A stretch of DNA of 39,184 nt from a virus, in IMG/VR virus record IMGVR_UViG_3300033551_000018, positions 1 to 39,184 of that record, one strand, 5' to 3'. Positions within the stretch are counted from its first letter, which is position 1. Each line of letters opens with the position of its first letter. Shown piece after piece: positions 5,602 through 39,184 of the stretch. The position numbers were made by a program, and so were the translations under genes. The notes below the pieces were generated by a model that made no database searches, was not told the DNA's origin, and worked only from the letters and a program-made list of their open reading frames with translations.

Positions 5602-5786
5602 AGGACCAGCCCCTCGACCTCATGGCACCGTGGCGGCTCGTGCTGCTGGCCGCTTATGTCATGCTGATATTCCCGGTGGCGGCGCTGGCGGGGGCGGCAT
5701 GGGGGCGTCTCGCCCCCCCGGCCTCCTGCGGGATCTGCAGGCGGCCCCTGACCCGGGGAGTGTGCTCGAGCTGCGGTGTCGGCTAA
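5598..5786 (+). CDS. Small membrane protein with C-terminal zinc ribbon
   Basis: This encodes 62 residues from the ATG at 5598, again overlapping the previous stop (ATGA). Residues about 12-35 form a membrane helix (WRLVLLAAYVMLIF...). The C-terminal 20 residues contain C-x2-C ... C-x2-C (SCGICRRPLTRG followed by CSSCG), a minimal zinc-ribbon knuckle. A single helix plus a zinc knuckle suggests a membrane-bound adaptor or nucleic-acid contact, but no function can be assigned. A gap of 44 nt separates it from the phosphoesterase gene. Confidence 0.7.
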   Translation: MKDQPLDLMAPWRLVLLAAYVMLIFPVAALAGAAWGRLAPPASCGICRRPLTRGVCSSCGVG

Positions 5787-5830
5787 CAGATGATTCCACG
5801 CCAGTCGTTGAAAACAAAGGAGAAATCGCA

Positions 5831-6745
5831 GTGACGACTTCCAAAGATAGCGCATCTTGCGCGCCTCTAGTCATCTTCCACAGCATGAACGGCACGATGC
5901 ACTGCGACGACGGCTGGGCCGCAGCATGCGTCGCCAAGATGGGAATAAGCGAGGGCGAGCCCGAGTTCTTCCCCGGCATCTACGGGCAGGAGCCACCCAT
6001 CGGCCGCGTCCGCGACCGCACGGTTTACCTGCTCGACTTCTCCTACAAGCGGCAGAAGCTGCTCGACCTCGTGTGGGAGGGGCAGCCGAAGCGGCTCGTG
6101 GTCCTCGACCACCACAAGACAGCCGAGGCCGATTTGCACGGCCTTGAGAAGCAGATCGAGGATGACGCCGCATGGATAACGGGAGGCCATCGCCCGGAGC
6201 TGCATGTCACGTTCGACATGGGGCACAGCGGCGCGATCCTCGCGTGGCGCTATTTCTTCGGCAACTTCAGCGAGCCGCCGGAACTGCTGAAGCGAGTTGA
6301 GGATGGCGACCTGTGGCGCTGGGCCTACCCCGACAGCAAGCTCATCCAGGCCGCTCTGCGCTCCTACCCACAGGACTTCGAGACGTGGCTCGGCCTGTTC
6401 GACCGGCCCGTTGAGGAGCTGGCGGCTGAAGGCGTTGCTGTCCGGCGCTTCATTGAACGAAAGGTTGAAGAGGTCTTGCCGAACGCGCGCAACGACCTTC
6501 TACCCAGCGACGGTCACTGCCCCGTGGTCCCGATGGTCAACTGCCCAGCGTTCCTCGCCTCAGAGGTGGCAGGCGCGCTTGCTGAGCGGTCGGATGATGG
6601 ATGGGCCTGCGCCTACTACGACACCGCCACGCACCGGGTTTACAGCCTCCGCTCACGCGGCAATGGGCCAGACGTGTCGGAGATCGCCAAGGCCCGCGGC
6701 GGCGGCGGACATCGGGGAGCAGCCGGCTTCCAGCATCCGCTCTGA
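5831..6745 (+). CDS. DHH/DHHA1 phosphoesterase (NrnB/oligoribonuclease-like)
   Basis: This encodes 304 residues. The GTG at 5831 is chosen because AAAGGAG (5816-5822) lies 8 nt upstream. The DHH motifs are complete: CDDGWAAA at 25-32, LLDFSY with D69, VLDHHKT with D93-H94-H95, and DMGHSGA with D129. The C-terminal DHHA1 domain ends in GGGGHRGAAGF (290-300). The family is Mn-dependent and hydrolyses short RNA oligomers, pAp or cyclic (di)nucleotides; the FHSMNGTMHCDDG start resembles NrnB-like proteins (COG2404). In a phage this could recycle nanoRNA, or destroy cyclic-oligonucleotide defence signals such as those of CBASS. The second role is speculative. The next gene lies 48 nt downstream. 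Confidence 0.9.
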   Translation: MTTSKDSASCAPLVIFHSMNGTMHCDDGWAAACVAKMGISEGEPEFFPGIYGQEPPIGRVRDRTVYLLDFSYKRQKLLDLVWEGQPKRLVVLDHHKTAEADLHGLEKQIEDDAAWITGGHRPELHVTFDMGHSGAILAWRYFFGNFSEPPELLKRVEDGDLWRWAYPDSKLIQAALRSYPQDFETWLGLFDRPVEELAAEGVAVRRFIERKVEEVLPNARNDLLPSDGHCPVVPMVNCPAFLASEVAGALAERSDDGWACAYYDTATHRVYSLRSRGNGPDVSEIAKARGGGGHRGAAGFQHPL

Positions 6746-6793: not shown

Positions 6794-7009
6794 ATGAACG
6801 AAGAGCAGCAGGCGTTTCTCGATGCCCTGGCCACCCCCCAGCAGTGGGAGCGCCTGCCAGATACCGTCTACGGGCTCCGCGCCATGCTCGACGATGCCCG
6901 CAGCATGCGTCGCCGCGACGTTGCGATCCTGAGTGATGCCTTTGGTTTCTGCCGCGAACTGCTCAAGCGCCGGCCGGCTGAGTACGGCGGGCCGAAGGAA
7001 TGTAGGTGA
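6794..7009 (+). CDS. Unknown small helical protein
   Basis: This encodes 71 residues from the ATG at 6794; a TTG at 6782 would add four residues and cannot be excluded. The protein is charged and helical (EEQQAFLDALATP, RAMLDDARSMRRRD) with no membrane segment. Its stop overlaps the methyltransferase start (GTGA), so the two are probably translated together. It may be a partner of the methyltransferase. No family is recognised. Confidence 0.6.
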   Translation: MNEEQQAFLDALATPQQWERLPDTVYGLRAMLDDARSMRRRDVAILSDAFGFCRELLKRRPAEYGGPKECR

Positions 7010-7563
7010 AGTTCGCCTATGCCGATCCGCCGTACCTCGGGCAGGGAGCCAAGCTCTATGGCGATTTGCATGCAGAGGCAGCCGACTGCGACACTCTTGA
7101 GTGGCACGCCCAGTTGCTAGAGCGGCTTTCGCAGGAATACCCGGACGGATGGGCTCTCAGCGCCAGCAGCCCGTCCTTGCGCCACATCTTGCCCATGTGC
7201 CCAGAGGACTGTCGCGTGGGGGCATGGGTGAAGCCTTTTTGCGCGTGGAAGCCGAACAGCAACCCAGCTTACGCCTGGGAGCCGGTCATTTTCCGAGGAG
7301 GACGTAAGAGGACATGGCGCAAAGACCGTTCAAGAGAAACAGTCCGCGACTACATCTCTGCTCCCATGATGATGCGTAAGGGTTTTGTCGGCGCCAAGCC
7401 GCCTCAATTCGTGCGCTGGATTATCGAGGTGCTAGGTGTAGAGCCGCAAGACCGCTTCGACGATCTATTCCCCGGCTCTGGGGCCGTCGCCGAGGCGCTC
7501 CAGGCATGGCGAGAAGCGGCGTCGGGGGCATGCCAAGCGCCGCTGTTTGAAGATGCGTGTTAG
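7006..7563 (+). CDS. DNA adenine methyltransferase-like protein (DPPY type)
   Basis: This encodes 185 residues from a GTG start. The catalytic DPPY motif is at residues 7-10, and the AdoMet-binding loop DLFPGSGAV is at 153-161. The order catalytic-then-AdoMet matches beta-class amino-methyltransferases. The intervening 140 residues are short for a target-recognition domain, so specificity may be low. GAKPPQFVRWII (129-140) corresponds to the helix before motif I. Phage orphan methylases of this kind protect genomes from restriction. It ends the rightward operon, 5 nt from the convergent late operon stop. It is small but appears intact. Confidence 0.85.
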   Translation: MKFAYADPPYLGQGAKLYGDLHAEAADCDTLEWHAQLLERLSQEYPDGWALSASSPSLRHILPMCPEDCRVGAWVKPFCAWKPNSNPAYAWEPVIFRGGRKRTWRKDRSRETVRDYISAPMMMRKGFVGAKPPQFVRWIIEVLGVEPQDRFDDLFPGSGAVAEALQAWREAASGACQAPLFEDAC

Positions 7564-7568
7564 CCAGA

Positions 7569-8819
7569 TTATGACTTGAACTCGACCGCGGCCACGGCCC
7601 AGTTCGCTGCCGTCGTGGCCGCCGCCGAGTTGACCGCCATGGTCTCGGTGGCTCCGAGCGTTCCGCCGGTCTTGGTAGCGAAGCTGGCCGCCACATCGGC
7701 GGTGGCGGAGGTCCCGGTCTGGTCCTCGCTCTGCTCCGTCCAGGTGCCGCCGACGTTGAGCGGATCGACCGCCCCGGAGCCGGCGCCGCCCACTCCCAGC
7801 CACAAGGACCCGGCCGCCTGCGACGCCACCCCGGCGCTGTGGCTGGAGATCGCGGCGCCGTTATAGCTGTTGGCGACCGCCGCCCCGACGATGTACGGGC
7901 TCAGGTTGGCCACGTCGTCCACCCGGGCCACGAGCTGCGCCAGGTTGCGGTTGCTGGTGATGACCAAGCTGCCCGCCAGCCCCGGCGTCAACCCGGTGAC
8001 GTAGCCGACGCCGACAAAGCAGCGGCCGATGACGCCGCTCGGGTGGGCCTGGCTGCCCGACGGGAACACCACCGCCTTGCCCTGGAAGGTGGCCGTCAGG
8101 GCATTGTAAGCCTGCGTCACCGTGGTCTGGCAGACGTAGCGGATCACGCAGGAGCGCCCGGCCGGGGTGTGCTGGGTGGCGCCGGTCAGGCTGACCCCTG
8201 TGGCTGAGACTTTGGTCGGCGTCCCCGATCCCAACACCGGGCTGACGGTCGTGGTCTCGACGTCGATCCGGCGGATCAAGATGGTCGAGATGCCATCCCC
8301 TAGATACGAGAGGGTCCAGGCCGTCCCGCCCGTCGCCGCCGGGGCACCATGGAAGGCACTCCAGTCAGCCTCGGCACTCCCATGTCGGGAGATGACTTCC
8401 ACCAGCCGGTCACCATTGCCGAGGTCGGTGATGGCCACGGACAGAAGGTAGGCAGCCGCCTGGACGGCCGCTTCCGTCACTGTCCAGGTCTGGGTGTCGA
8501 TCGTCATCATCACCGCGCTGCTGGCAGTGGATGGCGCGATGACGATGTAGCGCCTGGTGCCGGCCCGCACGTAGGCGCGGGTGCGCACGGTCGGCCCGAT
8601 CGAGCCCACCGCATTGCGCTGGATGCCGTGGCCGCTGGTGGCCGTGTTCTCGGTCAGGGTCACGAGCGGCGGGTTGAGCTCGGAGCCGCCCTCGGTCCTG
8701 GTGACGCCACCGACCAGCCACTCAGCCCCGGTGATCGCCGCCGGCCCATCCGGCACGGCGTCGGGCCCGGCCACGGCTGCCTTCGAGTGCATGGCCGTGA
8801 CACTGAGAAACCCTGGCAT
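7569..8819 (-). CDS. Probable virion surface/tail protein, last gene of late operon
   Basis: This encodes 416 residues from the ATG at 8819, overlapping the tailspike stop (TGATG). The composition is rich in A, G, T, S and V with few charged residues, typical of beta-sandwich virion proteins. The C-terminal end, AANWAVAAVEFKS, is a pattern I associate with repeated phage and prophage surface proteins. No enzyme motif is visible. It follows the tailspike directly, so it may be a receptor-binding or carbohydrate-binding accessory. The next gene to the left is on the opposite strand and convergent. Confidence 0.7.
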   Translation of the reverse strand: MPGFLSVTAMHSKAAVAGPDAVPDGPAAITGAEWLVGGVTRTEGGSELNPPLVTLTENTATSGHGIQRNAVGSIGPTVRTRAYVRAGTRRYIVIAPSTASSAVMMTIDTQTWTVTEAAVQAAAYLLSVAITDLGNGDRLVEVISRHGSAEADWSAFHGAPAATGGTAWTLSYLGDGISTILIRRIDVETTTVSPVLGSGTPTKVSATGVSLTGATQHTPAGRSCVIRYVCQTTVTQAYNALTATFQGKAVVFPSGSQAHPSGVIGRCFVGVGYVTGLTPGLAGSLVITSNRNLAQLVARVDDVANLSPYIVGAAVANSYNGAAISSHSAGVASQAAGSLWLGVGGAGSGAVDPLNVGGTWTEQSEDQTGTSATADVAASFATKTGGTLGATETMAVNSAAATTAANWAVAAVEFKS

Positions 8820-11800
8820 CAAGAGGTCGCCAAGGTGAGGACATCCGCTGCCAGAACCTTGACCGCGCGCACGGTGCCGATCGCGGGGATCGCCACCGAC
8901 AGCATGTCGCCGGTCGCCAGCGACTGGGCGGCCCCGCCAGCCCCGACCGTGTGCGCGCCCCCGGCCACCAAAGTGATGCTGAAGCCCGCCTCGTTGGGGA
9001 TCGTGACATTGCCCGAGGTCGTATACACGCCGCCGCTATAGGCGTTGGTCAGAGCTCCGGTGACGGTGCCGCTCCTCACCTTGACCCCGCCGGTGAGGGT
9101 GCCACCGGCCAGGGCCAGCTTGGCGTCCAGGGCGGTCTGCTGCGCGGTGCTGACCGGCTTGGCCGTGTCGGCGGTATTGTCCACGCTGCCCAGGCCGACG
9201 TCCGCCTTGGTCAGGGCCAGGAGTGTCTTGGTCTGCGCCGCCGTCAGCGCCTGCGGGACACCGGTGCTGGTAATCCGGCCGATCACCGTATCGGCCGCCA
9301 GATTGGCCATCTTGGCGAGCGTCACGGCACCCGGGTCGATCGTCCAGGTGGCCCCTGAGCCGCTGACGGTGATGTCGGTCTTGTCGCCATCGGTGACACC
9401 ACCGCCGCCGAACACCGTGGTCGGCCCGATCGCCACGGCCGTCTGCACCGAGCCGAGGTCACGAGCGAAGAAGCTGGCGCTCGGCATGTTCTCGTAGAGG
9501 GCGCCGATCGGGGTCCAGTCCGTGACGATATCGGCCCCTGCTGTCCGTGTTGCCCCTGACTTCAGCATGAACCGGAGATTGCTGAACTTGATGACGAAGT
9601 CCGGGTTGTTGCCGGCGTAGAGATGGATAAAGCAGTAGACAGCAGTGCCGAGCTTGGCCTGAAAGACGCCATTCCCGATATAAGACTGCTGCACCTCGCG
9701 CAGGAACCTTATACCCTTGATGCTGAAATCTTCGACGTTGCACTTCTCCATGGAGATATTTGGGTAGGATGCGGTATTGAAGCCGGTACCATCATCGATC
9801 TTGTAGGTAGTCGAGCCACCGACCGGGGCCGTCGTCCAGTTGGGGCTCACCGTCGCGACGCGGGCCGCGGTATAGCCGGTGATCAGCCGCCGCTCACCGA
9901 GCACACCTGTGCCGCCGGTGATCTCTGCCCACTGGTCTTCATATTCATTGGCGAAGCCGGCAGCGCTGCCCGCCAGGGTGATGCTGTTGGCAGACCCACC
10001 CGCTGCCGTGCCGGTGATGTCGGCCTTGCCACCGAAGATAGCCCAGTGGGTACCGCTGTTGATGCCGGTGCAGGAGATCAGGTTGGCCGAGCCGGGGATG
10101 CGGAACCCGGCCATGCCGGCCTTTCGGATGTCACCAGCATAGCAGTTGAAGAGAACGACCGAGTTGCCACCGAAGATATTGAAGCCGTTTCCATTGTAGG
10201 AATAGGCACGAACACCGGACATCCTGTGGCTGAAGTGTAATGCTATATCAAGAGCATGACCTCCTGCATCGACCCATAGGTTCTCGAAGAGACTATCGTA
10301 GACAAGAGTGCTAAAACCGGAGGTGATACCTTTACCCGTCCCGCCAGTCGCCTCTATTCCGAAGTCCCGCAGCACGCCGCGCCAGCTAGTGCCTGTCAAT
10401 GTGATGCAATTGACCCCGGTGTCGGGCCGCAGGACGGATTGATAGTCACCCTCGCCGAAGAGCGTTTGACCGCGATTTTGAACTCCAGTGCCACCGATAC
10501 CACCCAGCACGAGGCCGGGAGCGCCGATGCGATAGCCGGCCGTGGTCCGTGGCAGGAAGACCGACCGTCCGCTGTTCCAGGCGGCCTGGATGGCCGCCGT
10601 GTCGTTGGCCGTGTTGTCGCCAACGGCGCCATAGTCCTTGGCCGAGACGACATCACCGAGCTTGGACCCGAGCGTGCGGGACGCCGTGCCGGACCACACC
10701 CCGGTATCGGACGGGGTGGCGCCGCCGCCACCGCCGCCGCCGCCAGGCAGATCGCTGAGCAGCACCTTGCGGATGGCCGTGGCGCTGGCGTCGTAGGTGG
10801 CCACATAGTCAGTGGCCCCGTCCGGCGTGCCGTCCGCCGTGAGGCTGTTGATGTCCAGCGCCAGCGTGCGGTTGGCACTGAGGTCGCCGCCACCGGTGAG
10901 GCCCGCGCCCGCCGTGATGGTGCGCGAGGTCGGCACCCGGTCGGTGAGCTCGCCCTGCACGTAGGCGGTGGTGGCGACCTGGGCGGTACTGGTATCGGCT
11001 CCGGCGGTAGGCGCGGTGGGCGTGCCGGTCAGGGCGGGCGAGGCCAGCGGGGCCTTGGCGTCGAGAGCGCCTTGCAGCCCGGTGGTGTCGGCCACGGCAT
11101 GGGTGTGGACAGTACCGGCATAGCGGCCATCCCCGTCCGCCCGGGTCAGGACGGAGGTGCTGGCCGCCGTGCCCAGCGCCCGTTTCGCGAAGGTGTCGGC
11201 GCCGGTTTGCTCGACCAGCCCCGCCGTGGTCGTCAGCCCGGCCAAGGCGGTCAAGGTGCCGTCCAGCGGCTGCCTGGCCGCCAGGTCGGCCGGAAGATTG
11301 GTGATGTCGCTCTGCGCATGGGCATGGCTGGAGGCAGCCGCACCCAGCGTGGTGAGCTGCGCCGAGGCGCTGGCATCGTCGAGCAGCGCCCGCCCCGCGG
11401 CCGTGCAGACGAGCTCTTGCACCGCGCCGGCGCCTACCGTGCCCAGCACCCGATCGGCCGCTACGTTCTGGATCTTGGCGTAGGTGACGCTGCCGTCGAT
11501 GATGTCGGCGGTGATCGAGGGCGTGGCATCGGTGTAGGTGAAGTCGATCCGGCCGCTATCGATCAGGATATTGCCGACCGCATCCTGCGCGGCTTCATCG
11601 GTGTAGCCGCCGCCGGCGGTGATGGCGGAGCTGACGAAGGCCGTCGTGGCGATCTTGGTGGTGCTGTCGCCGAGCGTCGGGGTGGGCGAGGTCGGGGTGC
11701 CGAGGAAGGCAGGCGAGGTCAGCCCGGCCTTGGCGTCGAGGGCTGGCTGGAGCCCGGCCACGTCGCCGATCGTATGGCCGTGCGCGACCGGGGCCTTGCC

Positions 11801-33262: not shown

Positions 33263-33474
33263 CGCTCGCACGCCTCGGCCGTGCCCCGGGCGTGGTCCTC
33301 CGCGAAGTCCTGCTCCAGCTTGCGCAGCCGCCGTAGCGTCGCGTTGGCTCCCCGCCGCGCCAGCTCCCGCGCCAAGTCGGGGCACGGCAGTGGCCAAGGG
33401 CTGGCAGCCACCTCGCGCCGGATCAGCGGCGGCAAGGCGTCGTAAGCCTCGAGGTCAGGGCTAGCGCTTGACAT
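33259..33474 (-). CDS. Small unknown protein overlapping the portal gene end (DUF6525-like pattern)
   Basis: This encodes 71 residues from the ATG at 33474, overlapping the portal stop by 14 nt. The sequence YDALPPLIRREVAAS followed by a helical, Arg-rich C-terminal half resembles short phage and alphaproteobacterial proteins with a YDxLPxxIRR core (DUF6525-like). Function is unknown. It is basic and helical, so contact with nucleic acid is possible. The assignment is tentative. Confidence 0.55.
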   Translation of the reverse strand: MSSASPDLEAYDALPPLIRREVAASPWPLPCPDLARELARRGANATLRRLRKLEQDFAEDHARGTAEACER

Positions 33475-35590
33475 TAGGGATCTTGCCCTGGCCCTGCCGC
33501 GCCTGCTTGTCGATGGCGTAGCGCTCGAGTGCCGCCTCGCTGGCCAGCTCGATCCGCCCCAGCCGCTCCTGTGAGTTGATCTTGGCCATGGTGGCTTGCA
33601 GATCCATCCAGCTCTTCTGTTGCTTGGCCACGGCGTCGGCCTGGAGCTTCTGGGCGTCGATCGCCAGGCCGGACTGCAGCTTGGCCCCTTGTAGCTGCAT
33701 GTCGGCCTGCGCCTTCTGGCCCTGGATCTGCAACTTGCCCTGCGCCTCGATCATCTTGGGATCGGGCGGCGGCTCCTGTTGCTGCGCCATAGCCTTCTTG
33801 ACCTCATCCTCAGTCGAGTAGTAGCGCCCGGCGCCCAGCCCCTTGAACTCGGCCACGGCGTTCTGGATCAGCAGCGCCGTCTTGTCCGGCGTGGTCAGCG
33901 TGTTGTAGGGCGGCGGGGCTCCGAGCAACTGAGCAGTGAGGCCGATAAGCTCACGATACGCGCCTCTGCGTTCTTCCGCCGCCATCGCCCCCAAGCCCAC
34001 GCGAGCCCTGACACCAAAAGCTGGATCAAGAGCCCGAGGATCAACGGTCTGATACTTGCCATCCTCGCCCACCACCGCTCTGGGTGCCTCGCCCACCATC
34101 AGGCGCAGGAGCTTGGAGAACGCCGGCCGGAGCCCGAGCTCGGCGATGGTGCGGGTGGTCAGTTTGATAGCCCTCTGTGCCGCCGCCTGCGCACCGGCCA
34201 CCGCCACAGCCGCCACCGAGGTGAGGCTGTCGGGCTGCAGCCCCTGCGCCGCCCGGCCAGCGCCAATCCGTTGCTCAGTAAGAGTGTCCAGATATTGTAA
34301 TACCGGCAAAGTTTCTCCGGCCGTCGGAGGCGGCGCAAACCAGCGAACGCTATTAGGTGTGCGCTCATCCACCACCTTCATCTTGCGCCATGTCTGCAAC
34401 GATGCCCAATTGACAGTGCCACTCGCGAGCATCATGGGATTGTTGACGGTATCGACATTGTCGATCAGCCCACGCATCAATTTGGTCTTGGTCTCCTGCA
34501 GGTCCGTCACGAGGTCTGCGATGGATAGTCCCTGAATGGTCTGGGGGGATCGTCGGTAGGGGAAGAGCACATAGGGCTGATCGTCGTGAGCACTCCGCTG
34601 CTCTGCTCGAAGCACTGTCTTATCGTCACCGGCGGCGATGACCTTCCAGCGTTCAAGCAAGCCATCGCCATTAGCGTCCAACAACACATAAACCTCGTAG
34701 AGGGTGACAGGCTGTAGAGCCCAGCTCCCATAGTCTTTAGGCGTCTGCCGGCTCTCATCTGTCTGGCTTGCACGTTCGTCGTCGGCAGTATCGTCATAAC
34801 CCTGGATGTCCTCTAGCTCGTCCAGCTCGAGGCCCATGCTGCGCAGGTCGGCCATCCGCACGGTGCTCTTCTGGCCGATGCATAGCGCGGCGTCGGGGTC
34901 GGAGGTGCTGGTGCAGATGATCTCACCGGGGAATGGCGCATCAATTCTTAGCTCTGCTTCTACATAATACCGCCTTACTTGCCCAACACTGTGCGCCACA
35001 TACGACACTGGCTCGCCCGTCACCGGGTCCTGCGCCTCGGCCTGGATGTCCTCCCGCTCGAGCACGGCATAGCCCGGCGTCTGCTCGTACTGGTCCAGCT
35101 CCTCAGGCTGGCCCGCCACCTCCTGCTCTTCCATGCAGAGCTTCTCGTGGCGGTAGACCTTCAGGCAGCCTAGACGCCCCACCGCAGCATGCATAACCGC
35201 ATCATATAAACTCTGCCACCCGCCACCCTCCCACCAAATGCTAATAGCAAGTAATGTTGCAGCCTTCGTCTGGCCTGCCTTTGCCGGATCATTGCTATAG
35301 TATTCGACCGGCTCTTCTGATCCCGCCAACTGCTCCATGATTTCCGGTAGCAGTTGCTGCACGGCATCACGAACTTCCGCATAAACCGTGCTGTCGCCAC
35401 CGGGCTCCGGCTTCGTGTCAACGTGGCCCCTGTAGCGCTTCCAGCCGTCATCACGGGCGCCCCGCCAGTTGGCGTCCGCATAACGCTCGGCGTCCTCGAT
35501 CAGCTCCTCAACCGACTGCTGGAACTCGTCCTCGCTGAGCGGGCGCGGGGCGTCGGGACGGCCACCGTTGGGGCGGAACTTGACGGTCAC
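33461..35590 (-). CDS. Portal protein
   Basis: This encodes 709 residues from the GTG at 35590, with GAGGG upstream. The layout is that of large podovirus portals (P22/SU10-like): an N-terminal region with AVQQLLPEIMEQLAGSEEPV (about 77-97), a central wing with LYEVYVLLDANGDGLLERWK (a DxNGDGxxE loop common in portals), PYRRSPQTIQGLSIADLVTD and NVDTVNNPMML, then the clip and stem. The C-terminal 130 residues are a long Gln/Ala/Lys coiled coil (GKLQIQGQKAQADMQLQG) forming the barrel that reaches into the capsid. It makes the dodecameric ring for packaging and tail attachment. GC content dips around 34,250-35,000. Confidence 0.88.
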   Translation of the reverse strand: MTVKFRPNGGRPDAPRPLSEDEFQQSVEELIEDAERYADANWRGARDDGWKRYRGHVDTKPEPGGDSTVYAEVRDAVQQLLPEIMEQLAGSEEPVEYYSNDPAKAGQTKAATLLAISIWWEGGGWQSLYDAVMHAAVGRLGCLKVYRHEKLCMEEQEVAGQPEELDQYEQTPGYAVLEREDIQAEAQDPVTGEPVSYVAHSVGQVRRYYVEAELRIDAPFPGEIICTSTSDPDAALCIGQKSTVRMADLRSMGLELDELEDIQGYDDTADDERASQTDESRQTPKDYGSWALQPVTLYEVYVLLDANGDGLLERWKVIAAGDDKTVLRAEQRSAHDDQPYVLFPYRRSPQTIQGLSIADLVTDLQETKTKLMRGLIDNVDTVNNPMMLASGTVNWASLQTWRKMKVVDERTPNSVRWFAPPPTAGETLPVLQYLDTLTEQRIGAGRAAQGLQPDSLTSVAAVAVAGAQAAAQRAIKLTTRTIAELGLRPAFSKLLRLMVGEAPRAVVGEDGKYQTVDPRALDPAFGVRARVGLGAMAAEERRGAYRELIGLTAQLLGAPPPYNTLTTPDKTALLIQNAVAEFKGLGAGRYYSTEDEVKKAMAQQQEPPPDPKMIEAQGKLQIQGQKAQADMQLQGAKLQSGLAIDAQKLQADAVAKQQKSWMDLQATMAKINSQERLGRIELASEAALERYAIDKQARQGQGKIPNVKR

Positions 35591-35593
35591 GGG

Positions 35594-36703
35594 CTAGCCC
35601 TCGGCTTCGACCGGGGCGCTGTCCTCCGGCAGTTGTGCCGCCCGATGCCCGGCCATGTACTGCCGCCAGTTGGCCCGCAGCCGCCGCTGCGCGTAGAGCA
35701 GCGCCTGCTGCAGCGTGCCGTGGTCGGGCGGATCGGAGCCGAAGGCGCCCAGTCCGGTCTCGATCATCTGATCCGCAACGTAGCTGTGCTTGATCTTGCC
35801 CGCTGAGTTACGGCTTGGGTCGGGGTCCGCCTCGTCGGTTGGCTGCCGAAAAGGGGCCTGGCGCGCGACCGCCTCGCCCTCCTTGGCCAGCTTCTCCTCC
35901 TGCGCCTCCCGCTGCTGCTCGGCCGAGGGGCCATAGGTGCCCCTGGCCGCAGCGTCGTGATCGGCAAACTCCACCGGCTGTGGCTCATGCCACTGCTGGC
36001 TGGGCTCCGGCCCCGGCTCGGGCGACGGGCTAGGCGCCGAGCTGGCGGGATCGAGGGGGCCGGGCCACGGCGCGCCCATATGGTGGCGCTGACCCTTCTC
36101 AGCCGGGATCGCCGGCGGCGCCCCCTCGCCAGGGCCACCATACTCGCCGTCGAAGAACCGCTTACCCAAGTCCACGCCGCCCTGCGGGGCATCGATCGCC
36201 CGCACCACCGCGACGGGCTCCTCCTCGATGTTGCGCCCCACCCCCAGCATAGCCGGGTTGTCGCGCCACTGCTCCTCGACCTGGCGCTCAACCTCCTCCT
36301 CGCGGCTGAAGCCCTCGACCTCGGGTGCCCCACCGCGAGCGCGACGAAAGGCATCCAGGCTCTGCTGCTGGTGCTCCTCGATGCTCTCCGGCAACAGCGT
36401 CTCGCCCGTCTCGGGGTCGAGCCGCGTCCGCTCGCGGGCCTTCTCCTCGTCGATCTCCGGGTTGAGCCCGTCCGGCTTGGACTGCTTGCGCTTGAGCTCC
36501 TCCCCCTCGTCCTCCGGCCCCGGATCGGGGCTGGGCGTCAAGAGCTTGGTATGGTCCTGCACCCCATAGTCGGCTTTCTGGTCGTCGGGACGCCCCTCTT
36601 CCTTGCCACTCCTCCAGTCGGCCTTGGCCTCCTGCCTGGCGCGCTTGGCCTCCTCCAGCCCCGCCTTCCAGTCATCCTGCTGCGCCTTGGACTTCCGAGC
36701 CAT
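35594..36703 (-). CDS. Charged, Pro-rich late protein, unknown (possible packaging or portal-linked factor)
   Basis: This encodes 369 residues from the ATG at 36703, preferred to the GTG at 36712 because GGTGG then serves as SD. It is extremely rich in Glu, Pro, Gln, Arg and Lys and largely disordered, with a lysine/arginine-rich N-terminus (KAGLEEAKRARQEAKADWRS) and Pro/Ser linkers (SSAPSPSPEPGPEPS). It overlaps the RNase H-like gene by 32 nt and precedes the portal by 3 nt. A scaffold-like or DNA-packaging accessory role fits the position, but nothing identifies it. Confidence 0.6.
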   Translation of the reverse strand: MARKSKAQQDDWKAGLEEAKRARQEAKADWRSGKEEGRPDDQKADYGVQDHTKLLTPSPDPGPEDEGEELKRKQSKPDGLNPEIDEEKARERTRLDPETGETLLPESIEEHQQQSLDAFRRARGGAPEVEGFSREEEVERQVEEQWRDNPAMLGVGRNIEEEPVAVVRAIDAPQGGVDLGKRFFDGEYGGPGEGAPPAIPAEKGQRHHMGAPWPGPLDPASSAPSPSPEPGPEPSQQWHEPQPVEFADHDAAARGTYGPSAEQQREAQEEKLAKEGEAVARQAPFRQPTDEADPDPSRNSAGKIKHSYVADQMIETGLGAFGSDPPDHGTLQQALLYAQRRLRANWRQYMAGHRAAQLPEDSAPVEAEG

Positions 36704-37262
36704 CGCTGCCACCCCGCGCCAAAACCTGGCTTGACAAATCTCGGGCTAGCGTAGCGAGCGAAAGAGCAAGTGCCAAGTCATCATGTCCTCTTCTAGCTTG
36801 AATAGAAAGGCCACCCCTGCGAGTGAAACTCGCGGTAAGCTCACCCAGCTCTGCTTTCAACTCGTCCCGATTATAGCACCACGGCGCCACCGAAATCTCC
36901 CGGGCATGCACGAGACCCAACAGCCGGCCGAGCATGTGGACTTTGCCGACCGAGATGGCGCGAAGCGGACGGCCGCGACCGGAGCCGTCGCGGATCAATC
37001 GCGGCCCGGCGTTGCCGCCACCGATGATGGTATTGACCACCGGCAGCCCGGCAGCCCGCAGCAGCTCGAGCAGCCCAAGCCCCATGCCGGTGCCGTCCAC
37101 CGCCACCAGATCGAGCCGGGCCATCAGCGGCTCGAGGATCGCCGCCTGCGCCTGGAAGGCCGCGGATGGGAGAATGTGCGCCTCCGTCACCACGGACTTG
37201 TCCATGACGACGAGGGCGGTCCTGTCCGTGTAGCGCCCGATGTCGAGGCCGGCGCACAACAT
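36672..37262 (-). CDS. RNase H-like terminase nuclease domain encoded as a separate protein
   Basis: This encodes 196 residues from the ATG at 37262. It has the order of acidic motifs of large-terminase nucleases: AGLDIGRYTDRTALVV (D7, D13), DLVAVDGTGMGLGLLELL (D56) and RGHDDLALALSLA (D161, D162). These are the RuvC/RNase H-fold metal ligands that cut concatemeric DNA during packaging. In most phages this domain is the C-terminal third of one TerL polypeptide; here it is separate, and the ATPase part ends at 38925 upstream with four genes between. It may act in trans with that ATPase. A recombination nuclease of the same fold is the alternative. Confidence 0.75.
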   Translation of the reverse strand: MLCAGLDIGRYTDRTALVVMDKSVVTEAHILPSAAFQAQAAILEPLMARLDLVAVDGTGMGLGLLELLRAAGLPVVNTIIGGGNAGPRLIRDGSGRGRPLRAISVGKVHMLGRLLGLVHAREISVAPWCYNRDELKAELGELTASFTRRGGLSIQARRGHDDLALALSLATLARDLSSQVLARGGSDGSEVQGAAG

Positions 37263-37546
37263 CAGGGCGGTGGCTCAGGTAACGGGCGCCAATGCGTCAC
37301 CACCCGGATGGTACAGCGATCCTCCTCCTCCACCAGATCGCCGTCGTCCTCGTGCCAGGTCTGCCAGCCCTCCTCACCAGCCCGGCCGGTTGGCCCCCAC
37401 ATGGCGTTAGGGACGCGGAAGCCATGCTCTCGCTTCTCCTCGCCATCGACAACGAGCGCAATCCACGTCTTGGCGATCACCCGCAGCCACAGATCAACTA
37501 TCGTCCCATCCTTGGGCGCGGTGGCGATCGGCTGCCAGTCACTCAC
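37262..37546 (-). CDS. DUF551-like protein
   Basis: This encodes 94 residues from the GTG at 37546, overlapping the previous stop (GTGA). The start WQPIATAPKDGTIVDLWLRV and end VVTHWRPLPEPPP match the DUF551 signature (W.PI.TAP.DG...; HW.PLP.PP) found in many phages and prophages. DUF551 function is unknown. Here it is embedded in the packaging region. The family call is based on both end motifs and the length. Confidence 0.8.
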   Translation of the reverse strand: MSDWQPIATAPKDGTIVDLWLRVIAKTWIALVVDGEEKREHGFRVPNAMWGPTGRAGEEGWQTWHEDDGDLVEEEDRCTIRVVTHWRPLPEPPP

Positions 37547-38007
37547 CCCGCTGCCGTCTCCATGATAATAGGAGGCGAGTAGAACATGCCGGGCTGCGGC
37601 AGCTTCTGCGGCGTGCCTTGCTCCAGCCGCGGCACCGCCATCAGCGCCACGATCAGCGCTGCGAGCGCCTCGCGGGTGGGCACGATCCAGGTTCGCACGT
37701 CGGTGCTGGCCAGCCGATCGCCCTGTGGATAAGCCGGCCTGATGATGTAGCCATTCTCTACCGTGTGGATAAAGAGATTGGGGAATGTAGGACGGACTGG
37801 CAACTTGGGTGGCTCGGCGGGATGGGTGCTCGGCGAGATGCCATCGTCCGTCTCGGATGCCAGCCTTGGATCAAGCGGCTCATAGGCCGCCTCGTCCCGC
37901 CCGTTGCCGGCCAAGTCCACGTTGGGCGCTGCCGCCTTGACCACCCGCGGCGACTTGTCCTTCGCCCCTCGCGGACGGCCGCGAGGCTTGGCCTTCGTCT
38001 CTTCCAT
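37543..38007 (-). CDS. AT-hook-like basic protein, unknown
   Basis: This encodes 154 residues. The ATG at 38007 is chosen for its GGAG 6 nt upstream and because a longer frame would overlap the previous gene heavily. The N-terminus KAKPRGRPRGAKDKSP contains the RGRP core of an AT-hook, a minor-groove DNA-binding motif. The rest is Pro-rich with a hydrophobic helix-like stretch (REALAALIVALMAVPRL). In the packaging gene block it may bind DNA for packaging, but no terminase small-subunit motif is visible. Confidence 0.6.
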   Translation of the reverse strand: MEETKAKPRGRPRGAKDKSPRVVKAAAPNVDLAGNGRDEAAYEPLDPRLASETDDGISPSTHPAEPPKLPVRPTFPNLFIHTVENGYIIRPAYPQGDRLASTDVRTWIVPTREALAALIVALMAVPRLEQGTPQKLPQPGMFYSPPIIMETAAG

Positions 38008-38017
38008 CGACTTCTCC

Positions 38018-38716
38018 TCAGGCTCGATACTCGGGGAGCGAGATCCACGGGTCGGGCGCGCCTGCTTCTCCCATGTGCGCAACTGCTGCGACCGCCAGCG
38101 CGACATCATCTTGCGTGCTTGTGTCGGTGACGTAGGTGTCTGGCTCATCCTTGGGTGGCCTCTCCTGGGCGCTGGCCAGGGCCGCCCTGATCTGGGTGCC
38201 CCGCCATATCCTCGGGTCGTCGGTGGCCGGCTCGAGTGGCTGCAATACTCCGGGGCGGGCCATCAACACGCGCAGCTCTGAAAAAAGTGTTATCCGGCCG
38301 ATTTTCCAACTCTCCACATCGGGCATCAGCCGACCGTGCGTCGTGACCATGATGTACCGATCCGGCGTCAGCTTCTCGCCCATGAGCGCATGCGCGGTCT
38401 GCTGCCGGGTCTGGTCGATGACCAGGATCGCCTTGCCCAGCCCTTCGGCCGCGCGATCGGTAGCGCGGTCCATGATGCGCGCCAGCCGGTCCATCACCAC
38501 CGTGGCGTTGCCCGGCAGCACCTCCACCAGCTCGAGGGCGAGACCGGTGAGCACCATGCGGCCGGACTGGTGGGTATGCTCGCTGCCGGCCACGACCAGC
38601 ACGTTAGGGCGCAGGACGTCGCCGAGCCGGCAAGCCACCGTCACGCCGAGCTTGGTGTGTGCCACCCTGCGCGGCGCGTCCCGATCCCACGGCATGATAG
38701 GGCGAGCGTAGTTCAC
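38018..38716 (-). CDS. Second RNase H-like, terminase-nuclease-related protein (degenerate)
   Basis: This encodes 232 residues from the GTG at 38716, coupled to the RHH gene stop (GTGA). GKAILVIDQTRQQTAHALMG (D101) aligns with the D56 motif of the protein at 36672-37262, and STQDDVALAVAAVAH (D203, D204) with its DDLALALSLA motif. The helix-strand spacing fits the terminase nuclease fold. However the first GxDxG motif is absent, so catalysis may be lost or differently organised. It may be a regulatory paralog of the terminase nuclease. The fold call is inference from motif spacing. Confidence 0.5.
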   Translation of the reverse strand: MNYARPIMPWDRDAPRRVAHTKLGVTVACRLGDVLRPNVLVVAGSEHTHQSGRMVLTGLALELVEVLPGNATVVMDRLARIMDRATDRAAEGLGKAILVIDQTRQQTAHALMGEKLTPDRYIMVTTHGRLMPDVESWKIGRITLFSELRVLMARPGVLQPLEPATDDPRIWRGTQIRAALASAQERPPKDEPDTYVTDTSTQDDVALAVAAVAHMGEAGAPDPWISLPEYRA

Positions 38717-38931
38717 CGGCCGAGCCCCTTGCGTAGTAGCTCCAGGGCCAGGCTCTCCACCGTCCTACCATTCAGCCGGGCGCCTGCCCGCAGGCGCTCC
38801 AGCATGCCGTCATCCAGCCGCACGGTGAGGTAGGCGGCAGGCTTGGTGACAGCCGGCTGGCCCGTGGCCAGCACGTCGCGCACCAGCGGCAGCCACTCGA
38901 GCGGCGCATCGTCAGGGATCGGGCTCACCAT
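38713..38931 (-). CDS. Ribbon-helix-helix DNA-binding protein
   Basis: This encodes 72 residues from the ATG at 38931, overlapping the terminase stop by 7 nt. AYLTVRLDDGMLERLRAG followed by LNGRTVESLALELLRKGL is a ribbon-helix-helix fold of the MetJ/Arc/CopG class: beta strand, then two helices. The N-terminal 20 residues include APLEWLP, a peptide also present at the C-terminal end of the terminase fragment just upstream. It may regulate the late operon or bind DNA in packaging. Its position immediately after the truncated terminase is unusual. Confidence 0.75.
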   Translation of the reverse strand: MVSPIPDDAPLEWLPLVRDVLATGQPAVTKPAAYLTVRLDDGMLERLRAGARLNGRTVESLALELLRKGLGR

Positions 38932-38972
38932 TCGCGCGCCCTCGCCTCGGCCTGCGGCAGCCACTCGAGCGG
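38886..38972. repeat. 19-bp direct repeat at the terminase/RHH junction
   Basis: GCGGCAGCCACTCGAGCGG occurs at 38886-38904 and 38954-38972, same orientation, 68 bp start to start. One copy encodes APLEWLP near the end of the terminase fragment, the other the same peptide near the start of the RHH protein. This looks like a duplication at the junction of the two genes, consistent with a rearrangement that separated the terminase ATPase part from its downstream portion. Confidence 0.75.
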
Positions 38973-39184
38973 GGCGGGGTGGGGCGTGGCGCCGAAGATG
39001 TCGTCCAGCGCGGATGGGTCGAAGATGCCGCCGGGGGCAGCGACGAAGCGCCCATTGTATTCTTGTTCCCACACCTGTGGCCCCAAGCGCACACGTTCAC
39101 GGGCTAGGAAGGCAGGGTCAATCCGCTTGCACTGGTCGGCCGTCACCAGCACCTTGTGCCACCAGTCTTCCTCAGTCCAAGCCC
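38925..39184 (-). CDS. terL: Large terminase, ATPase-domain C-terminal fragment (starts beyond right edge)
   Basis: The frame enters from the right edge and ends at 38925, giving 86 residues. The sequence AWTEEDWWHKVLVTADQCKR followed by IDPAFLARERVRLG and QEYNGRF matches the region just after the large-terminase ATPase core (cpRIdp.fL..E...lG....rqEY...F). In ordinary TerL the nuclease domain follows here; instead the protein stops after about 35 more residues (LEWLPQAEARAREW). The Walker motifs would lie beyond the window. Terminase drives ATP-dependent DNA packaging with the portal. The nuclease domain seems to be supplied by a downstream gene. Confidence 0.8.
   Translation of the reverse strand, partial: AWTEEDWWHKVLVTADQCKRIDPAFLARERVRLGPQVWEQEYNGRFVAAPGGIFDPSALDDIFGATPHPAPLEWLPQAEARAREW

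Follow-up and report, generated by a model that had tools for sequence, protein, structure and literature searches.

How is the large terminase (TerL) of a phage organized when its ATPase and its nuclease are encoded by separate genes that do not even adjoin one another? The question is raised by the viral contig IMGVR_UViG_3300033551_000018, a linear stretch of 39,184 nucleotides which was analysed over its whole length and is referred to below as the window. An earlier note on this DNA had described a TerL whose ATPase and RNase H-like nuclease are specified by two distinct genes, and this description holds, the same split being found in an independent 22-kb viral contig, L001, which was identified using the portal protein as an anchor. 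Sequence comparisons further suggest that the two phages likely encode a three-gene large terminase, consisting of an ATPase motor, a degenerate nuclease (RNH1) and an active nuclease (RNH2).

The ATPase half is represented in the window by the last 85 codons of its gene (38925..39182, minus strand), the 5' end having been removed by the right-hand edge of the contig. The stop codon at 38925 falls at the boundary between the ATPase and nuclease domains, as had been proposed, and the fragment matches TerL families, namely, phrog_7579 (E=3e-4) and the TerL of Thermus phage Riverbug (5e-5). The motifs diagnostic of the motor lie beyond the cut end of the window, but are present in the complete homologue encoded by L001 (4883-5728, 281 amino acids (aa)), which carries SRQVGKS, LIVDEAS and STP, corresponding to Walker A, Walker B and the coupling motif, and matches Terminase_6N (5.9e-8) and phrog_7579 (6.7e-32). 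The C-terminal part of this protein is 57% identical to the window fragment, and the two genes end at the same place. Because L001 possesses a complete ATPase gene along with the same split, the separation of the two halves is not an artefact of the contig edge. TerL profile searches detected no second ATPase-type TerL, and hence no unsplit one, in the 39-kb contig, which is linear and cut inside the ATPase gene.

The nuclease half, RNH2, is a stand-alone protein of 196 aa (36672..37262, minus strand) which displays, as earlier recognized, the full motif order of terminase nucleases (GLDIGRYTD, VDGTGMG and HDDLALALSLA) and can be aligned from end to end with the nuclease domains of TerLs. In this alignment, the intact residues D7, D13, D56 and H160-D161-D162 correspond to D294, D300, D347 and H427-D428-D429 of the G20c TerL, and D7, D56 and D162 are predicted to be equivalent to the three catalytic Asp residues of TerL nucleases; in the G20c enzyme, D294, D347 and D429 are indispensable (PMC5389553). 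Every clear database match of RNH2 is a terminase. The window protein matches phrog_5909 (2.9e-4), whereas the L001 homologue matches the nuclease end of the MW202711 TerL (E=8e-6), with the weaker phage matches (E<=1) also being terminases, save for two records of one unnamed phiAsp2 gene, and a profile of both homologues retrieves TerL nuclease structures from the PDB (5m1q, E=0.002). The Pfam Terminase_6C profile scores 15.8 bits on RNH2, under the 22.6-bit cut-off, which several stand-alone relatives in prophages exceed. Judging from these motifs and matches, RNH2 is a TerL nuclease.

The second nuclease-fold candidate, RNH1 (38018..38716, minus strand, 232 aa), had been listed in the earlier note as one of four genes lying between the terminase halves. 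All four are indeed present; the ‘second RNase H-like protein’, however, does not appear to be mere cargo, and is probably a diverged, catalytically dead paralogue of the TerL nuclease, as suggested by remote profile and alignment evidence. Domain and PHROG family searches yielded no family match for either the window or the L001 copy. When a nuclease profile built from the split-TerL clade was run against 15,363 open reading frames (ORFs), the two RNH1s ranked 159-160 (E 0.17 and 0.20), under the TerL and nuclease ORFs and over every unrelated ORF. Conversely, with the RNH1 pair as the query, 9 of the ten best matches and 15 of the twenty best were nucleases, compared with at most 4 and 5, respectively, in 201 column-shuffled controls. 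Hypergeometric p-values were disregarded, given that ORFs are not independent of one another. The alignment retains a VIDQT motif, the W-(I/V)-GR-TL segment and QDD in place of HDD, so that the second Asp and the C-terminal DD are kept; VIDQT resembles the VIDQTGVG of proteobacterial relatives, with the subsequent G-x-G lost. The position of the beta-1 catalytic Asp (D294 in G20c) is occupied by Arg in both phages, although the alignment is remote in that stretch; a reading by eye had placed Thr/Ile there, and was shifted to Arg in the multiple alignment with the nearest nucleases. The window and L001 copies are 55% identical, with nonsynonymous (dN) and synonymous (dS) divergences of 0.43 and 1.41 and a dN/dS ratio of ~0.3, similar to those of RNH2 and the ATPase, a comparison in which dS is near saturation. 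By this pattern of substitutions, RNH1 is under purifying selection. In L001, the RNH1 gene (5725-6432) directly overlaps the ATPase stop codon (ATGA), as nuclease genes do in many relatives, whereas in the window a small gene separates the two.

The simplest origin for such a pair is duplication of the nuclease followed by decay of the ATPase-proximal copy, because tandem nuclease genes downstream of a split ATPase are found in parallel cases, namely, L172, L128 and L126. In the L172 pair (7285-7926 and 7926-8600), the three N-terminal Asp positions of the first gene are occupied by E, R and N, whereas the second gene has the canonical residues; in L128 (6733-7299 and 7302-7970), both copies are canonical; and in L126, the tandem genes are located at 1616-2233 and 2233-2946. 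Four further loci (L127, L144, L157 and L173), in which the nuclease frame is broken in two, were left out of this double-nuclease count, and the break may represent either decay or sequencing error. Under the proposed scenario, the stand-alone nuclease gene would have been duplicated in a phage whose TerL was already split, the copy nearest the ATPase would then have decayed, and the boundary between the halves would subsequently have gathered unrelated small genes.

Several observations weigh against the three-gene reading. RNH1 and RNH2 share only 12% identity, and pairwise and profile-profile comparisons gave nothing significant. The AlphaFold models (pLDDT 38 for RNH1 and 33 for RNH2) are too poor for use and provide no independent support for the fold. 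RNH1 is present in two contigs only, the window and L001, and searches of the viral contigs with RNH1 or RNH2 as the sole query returned no matches. A candidate RNH1 from 385 genomes of one bacterial class was a single match antisense to a chemotaxis-receptor-like gene and was discarded as noise. The trees of the nucleases, moreover, have weak support and do not settle the origin of RNH1 and RNH2; in one of them, RNH2 groups with intact TerLs (support 92, long branches) of phages with the same portal family, a placement from which a different origin would follow. One alternative is a chimeric ancestry, whereby the ATPase and RNH1 form a cassette of the split type and RNH2 is a remnant of an older intact TerL that resided beside the SU10-type portal. 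The intact TerLs in question are those of the Manatee Spring phages, which carry a related portal, and one of them is the best BLAST match of L001 RNH2. Nevertheless, most of the top matches in the RNH2 profile searches are stand-alone nucleases of alphaproteobacterial and related origin (L153, L145, L144 and L137), the node joining RNH2 to the Manatee Spring TerLs is not strong and is a place where long branches meet, and RNH2 shifts nearest to the split nucleases once RNH1 is included in the tree. We consider the chimera rather unlikely.

The makeup of the gap bears on a second alternative, namely, a simple split TerL that comprises the ATPase and RNH2 only, with RNH1 being one more gap gene without a role in packaging. 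In the window, the minus strand encodes, in order, the ATPase fragment, a ribbon-helix-helix (RHH) protein, RNH1, an AT-hook-like protein, a DUF551 protein, RNH2, a 372-aa protein and an SU10-type portal, and all the ORFs listed previously were found at their reported coordinates and strand. The RHH gene (38713..38931, ~72 aa) encodes a small putative DNA-binding protein with a FitA-like RHH match (7.3e-5) under the Pfam cut-off; it probably starts at 38931 (72 aa), overlapping the ATPase stop codon by a few bases, rather than at the mechanical ORF start, 39072. The AT-hook-like gene (37543..38007, ~154 aa), which matches PF02178 at E=0.52 only, probably also starts later than its mechanical ORF, at 38007 (154 aa), a choice preferred because the longer ORF overlaps the RNH1 gene. 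The DUF551 gene (37262..37546, 94 aa) matches PF04448 (7.4e-5) above the cut-off. Beyond RNH2 lie the 372-aa gene (35594..36712), 55% identical to its L001 counterpart, and the portal gene (33461..35590), which matches PF23899 (1.3e-109) and phrog_1216. The genes are arranged head to tail and tightly packed, and the stop and start codons of most neighbours overlap by a few bases; therefore, the terminase halves remain within one compact gene series, even though RNH2 is 1.66 kb away from the ATPase gene, rather than directly adjoining it as is usual for the split-TerL clade.

L001 has in common with the window the ATPase, RNH1, RNH2 (55% identical), a 355-aa counterpart of the 372-aa protein and the portal (74% identical), but its gap, which places RNH2 2.35 kb from the ATPase, lacks the RHH gene, and the three genes that separate RNH1 from RNH2 are different; no homologues of the AT-hook-like and DUF551 genes were found in this gap. 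Two of the L001 gap genes match PHROGs of ‘unknown function’ (6904-7470, phrog_4652, E=1e-46; 7599-8069, phrog_5926, 6e-15). Thus, the split is conserved between the two phages, in contrast to the turnover of the gap genes. Such turnover, together with the fact that most split loci of the clade require no extra protein, favours a bystander status for RNH1. Unlike the other gap genes, however, RNH1 is kept in both phages, at a level of conservation and constraint comparable to that of the ATPase and RNH2, appears to be homologous to the TerL nuclease and occupies the nuclease position in L001, all of which make the two-gene alternative improbable.

A third alternative reverses the roles: RNH2 would be a RuvC-type Holliday-junction or recombination nuclease and RNH1 the genuine terminase nuclease. 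TerL and RuvC nucleases have a common fold and catalytic residues (PMC5389553), and RNH1 is located nearer the ATPase than RNH2; however, RNH2 matches terminase families and proteins rather than RuvC families, contrary to the possibility raised earlier that a recombination nuclease would fit it better, and RNH1 appears to be devoid of the essential beta-1 Asp, so that this assignment is very unlikely. Least credible of all is an artefactual split, or one that is reversed at the RNA or protein level (frameshift error, group I intron or intein): intron-split TerLs, such as those of Jug phages (PMC12363816), and intein-bearing ones (PMC7156551) are known, but the same break recurs in an independent contig, the gap is filled by complete genes with their own starts that differ between the phages, no Rfam intron was found between the halves, and a family search of the window gap genes revealed no homing endonuclease or intein.

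Split terminases had been presumed uncommon in the earlier note, an expectation that our survey does not bear out for this particular ATPase clade. Of the 80 prophage loci that this ATPase family retrieved from a diverse range of bacteria and archaea, 60 encode the ATPase and the nuclease separately, usually in adjacent genes, a count biased upward because 3/4 of the seed sequences were themselves split; of the remainder, 4 are fused by profile, 11 have a tail of 170-366 aa and are probably fused, and 5 are unclassifiable. Separate nuclease genes are also found in viral contigs among 80 ATPase relatives (L014, L019, L021 and L050). In the ATPase tree, split and fused loci are strongly clustered, the label changing 9 times as opposed to 27 times in shuffles, with L001 on a long branch inside a mixed, mainly split clade. 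The two halves correspond to phrog_7579 (ATPase) and phrog_27743 (nuclease), the latter annotated as ‘unknown function’, and none of the stand-alone nucleases tested matched an NCBIfam entry. Split TerL is thus common in this ATPase clade, and the split as such was already known: in Arthrobacter cluster AY phages, including BillyTP and BlueShadow, TerL is encoded by two consecutive genes (PMC11920828, PMC12820723).

The survey also uncovered several variations on this arrangement. Many bacterial phyla, as well as methanogenic archaea (Methanothrix and Methanoregula), harbour prophage-like loci with split terminases. Gapped arrangements are found in L021 and L137 as well, and in the latter (7700-9555) the ATPase and the nuclease are separated by ~1.9 kb carrying several small unrelated genes, apparently a site of gene insertion. 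In L114 (5846-6493 and 6812-7777), the usual order is inverted, the nuclease gene being upstream of the ATPase gene and separated from it by another gene. In archaeal loci L101 and L106, the ATPase is followed in the same frame by an unusually long tail of ~360-370 aa which matches the nuclease poorly, and which may represent an insert or a nuclease of another kind.

Compared with these systems, what is new here is a gap containing a putatively degenerate nuclease paralogue and exchangeable genes between the TerL halves. The likeness to cluster AY is one by description, and its two genes are consecutive, whereas in the window four genes intervene. The phrog_7579/phrog_27743 prophage clade shares with the window the ATPase family, the break point and a homologous stand-alone nuclease, but most of its members encode a single nuclease directly after the ATPase, in contrast to the long branch, the gap genes and RNH1 of the window/L001 lineage. 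Among isolated phages, the closest ATPases are those of Riverbug and the Meiothermus phages MMP7 and MMP17 (34-36% identity), in which the ATPase and nuclease domains follow in the same order within one protein of 415-417 aa. A different parallel is offered by phi29 gp16, the vestigial nuclease domain of which retains DNA binding without cutting (PMC7672431). As predicted for RNH1, this domain, which in gp16 is part of the packaging motor, has the TerL-type nuclease fold and has lost catalysis, yet has been retained; it is, however, fused to the ATPase of a motor without an active nuclease, whereas RNH1 is encoded by a separate gene next to an apparently active RNH2.

By family membership, the separate ATPase protein would be the DNA-translocating motor and RNH2 the RNase H-fold nuclease that cuts the packaged DNA, docking in trans on the motor or the portal; the division between motor and cutter is well supported by the families to which the proteins belong. 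By analogy with gp16, RNH1 would most likely be a non-cutting subunit that fills the nuclease seat and provides contacts with DNA, the portal or the ATPase. It can be proposed only tentatively, and with considerable doubt, that the dead nuclease-fold subunit replaces the nuclease domain during translocation and that the active nuclease is recruited only for cutting, in which case motor, clamp and cutter would be genetically separable.

In most studied terminases, motor and nuclease reside in one protein, and because of this, the silencing of cutting during packaging has been hard to study. A natural split system with inactive and active nuclease genes would allow motor, docking and cutting to be removed separately. 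Furthermore, our survey suggests that the stand-alone terminase nuclease occurs widely among the prophages of bacteria and archaea; given that it is annotated as a protein of ‘unknown function’, many genomes probably carry an unrecognized half of a terminase.

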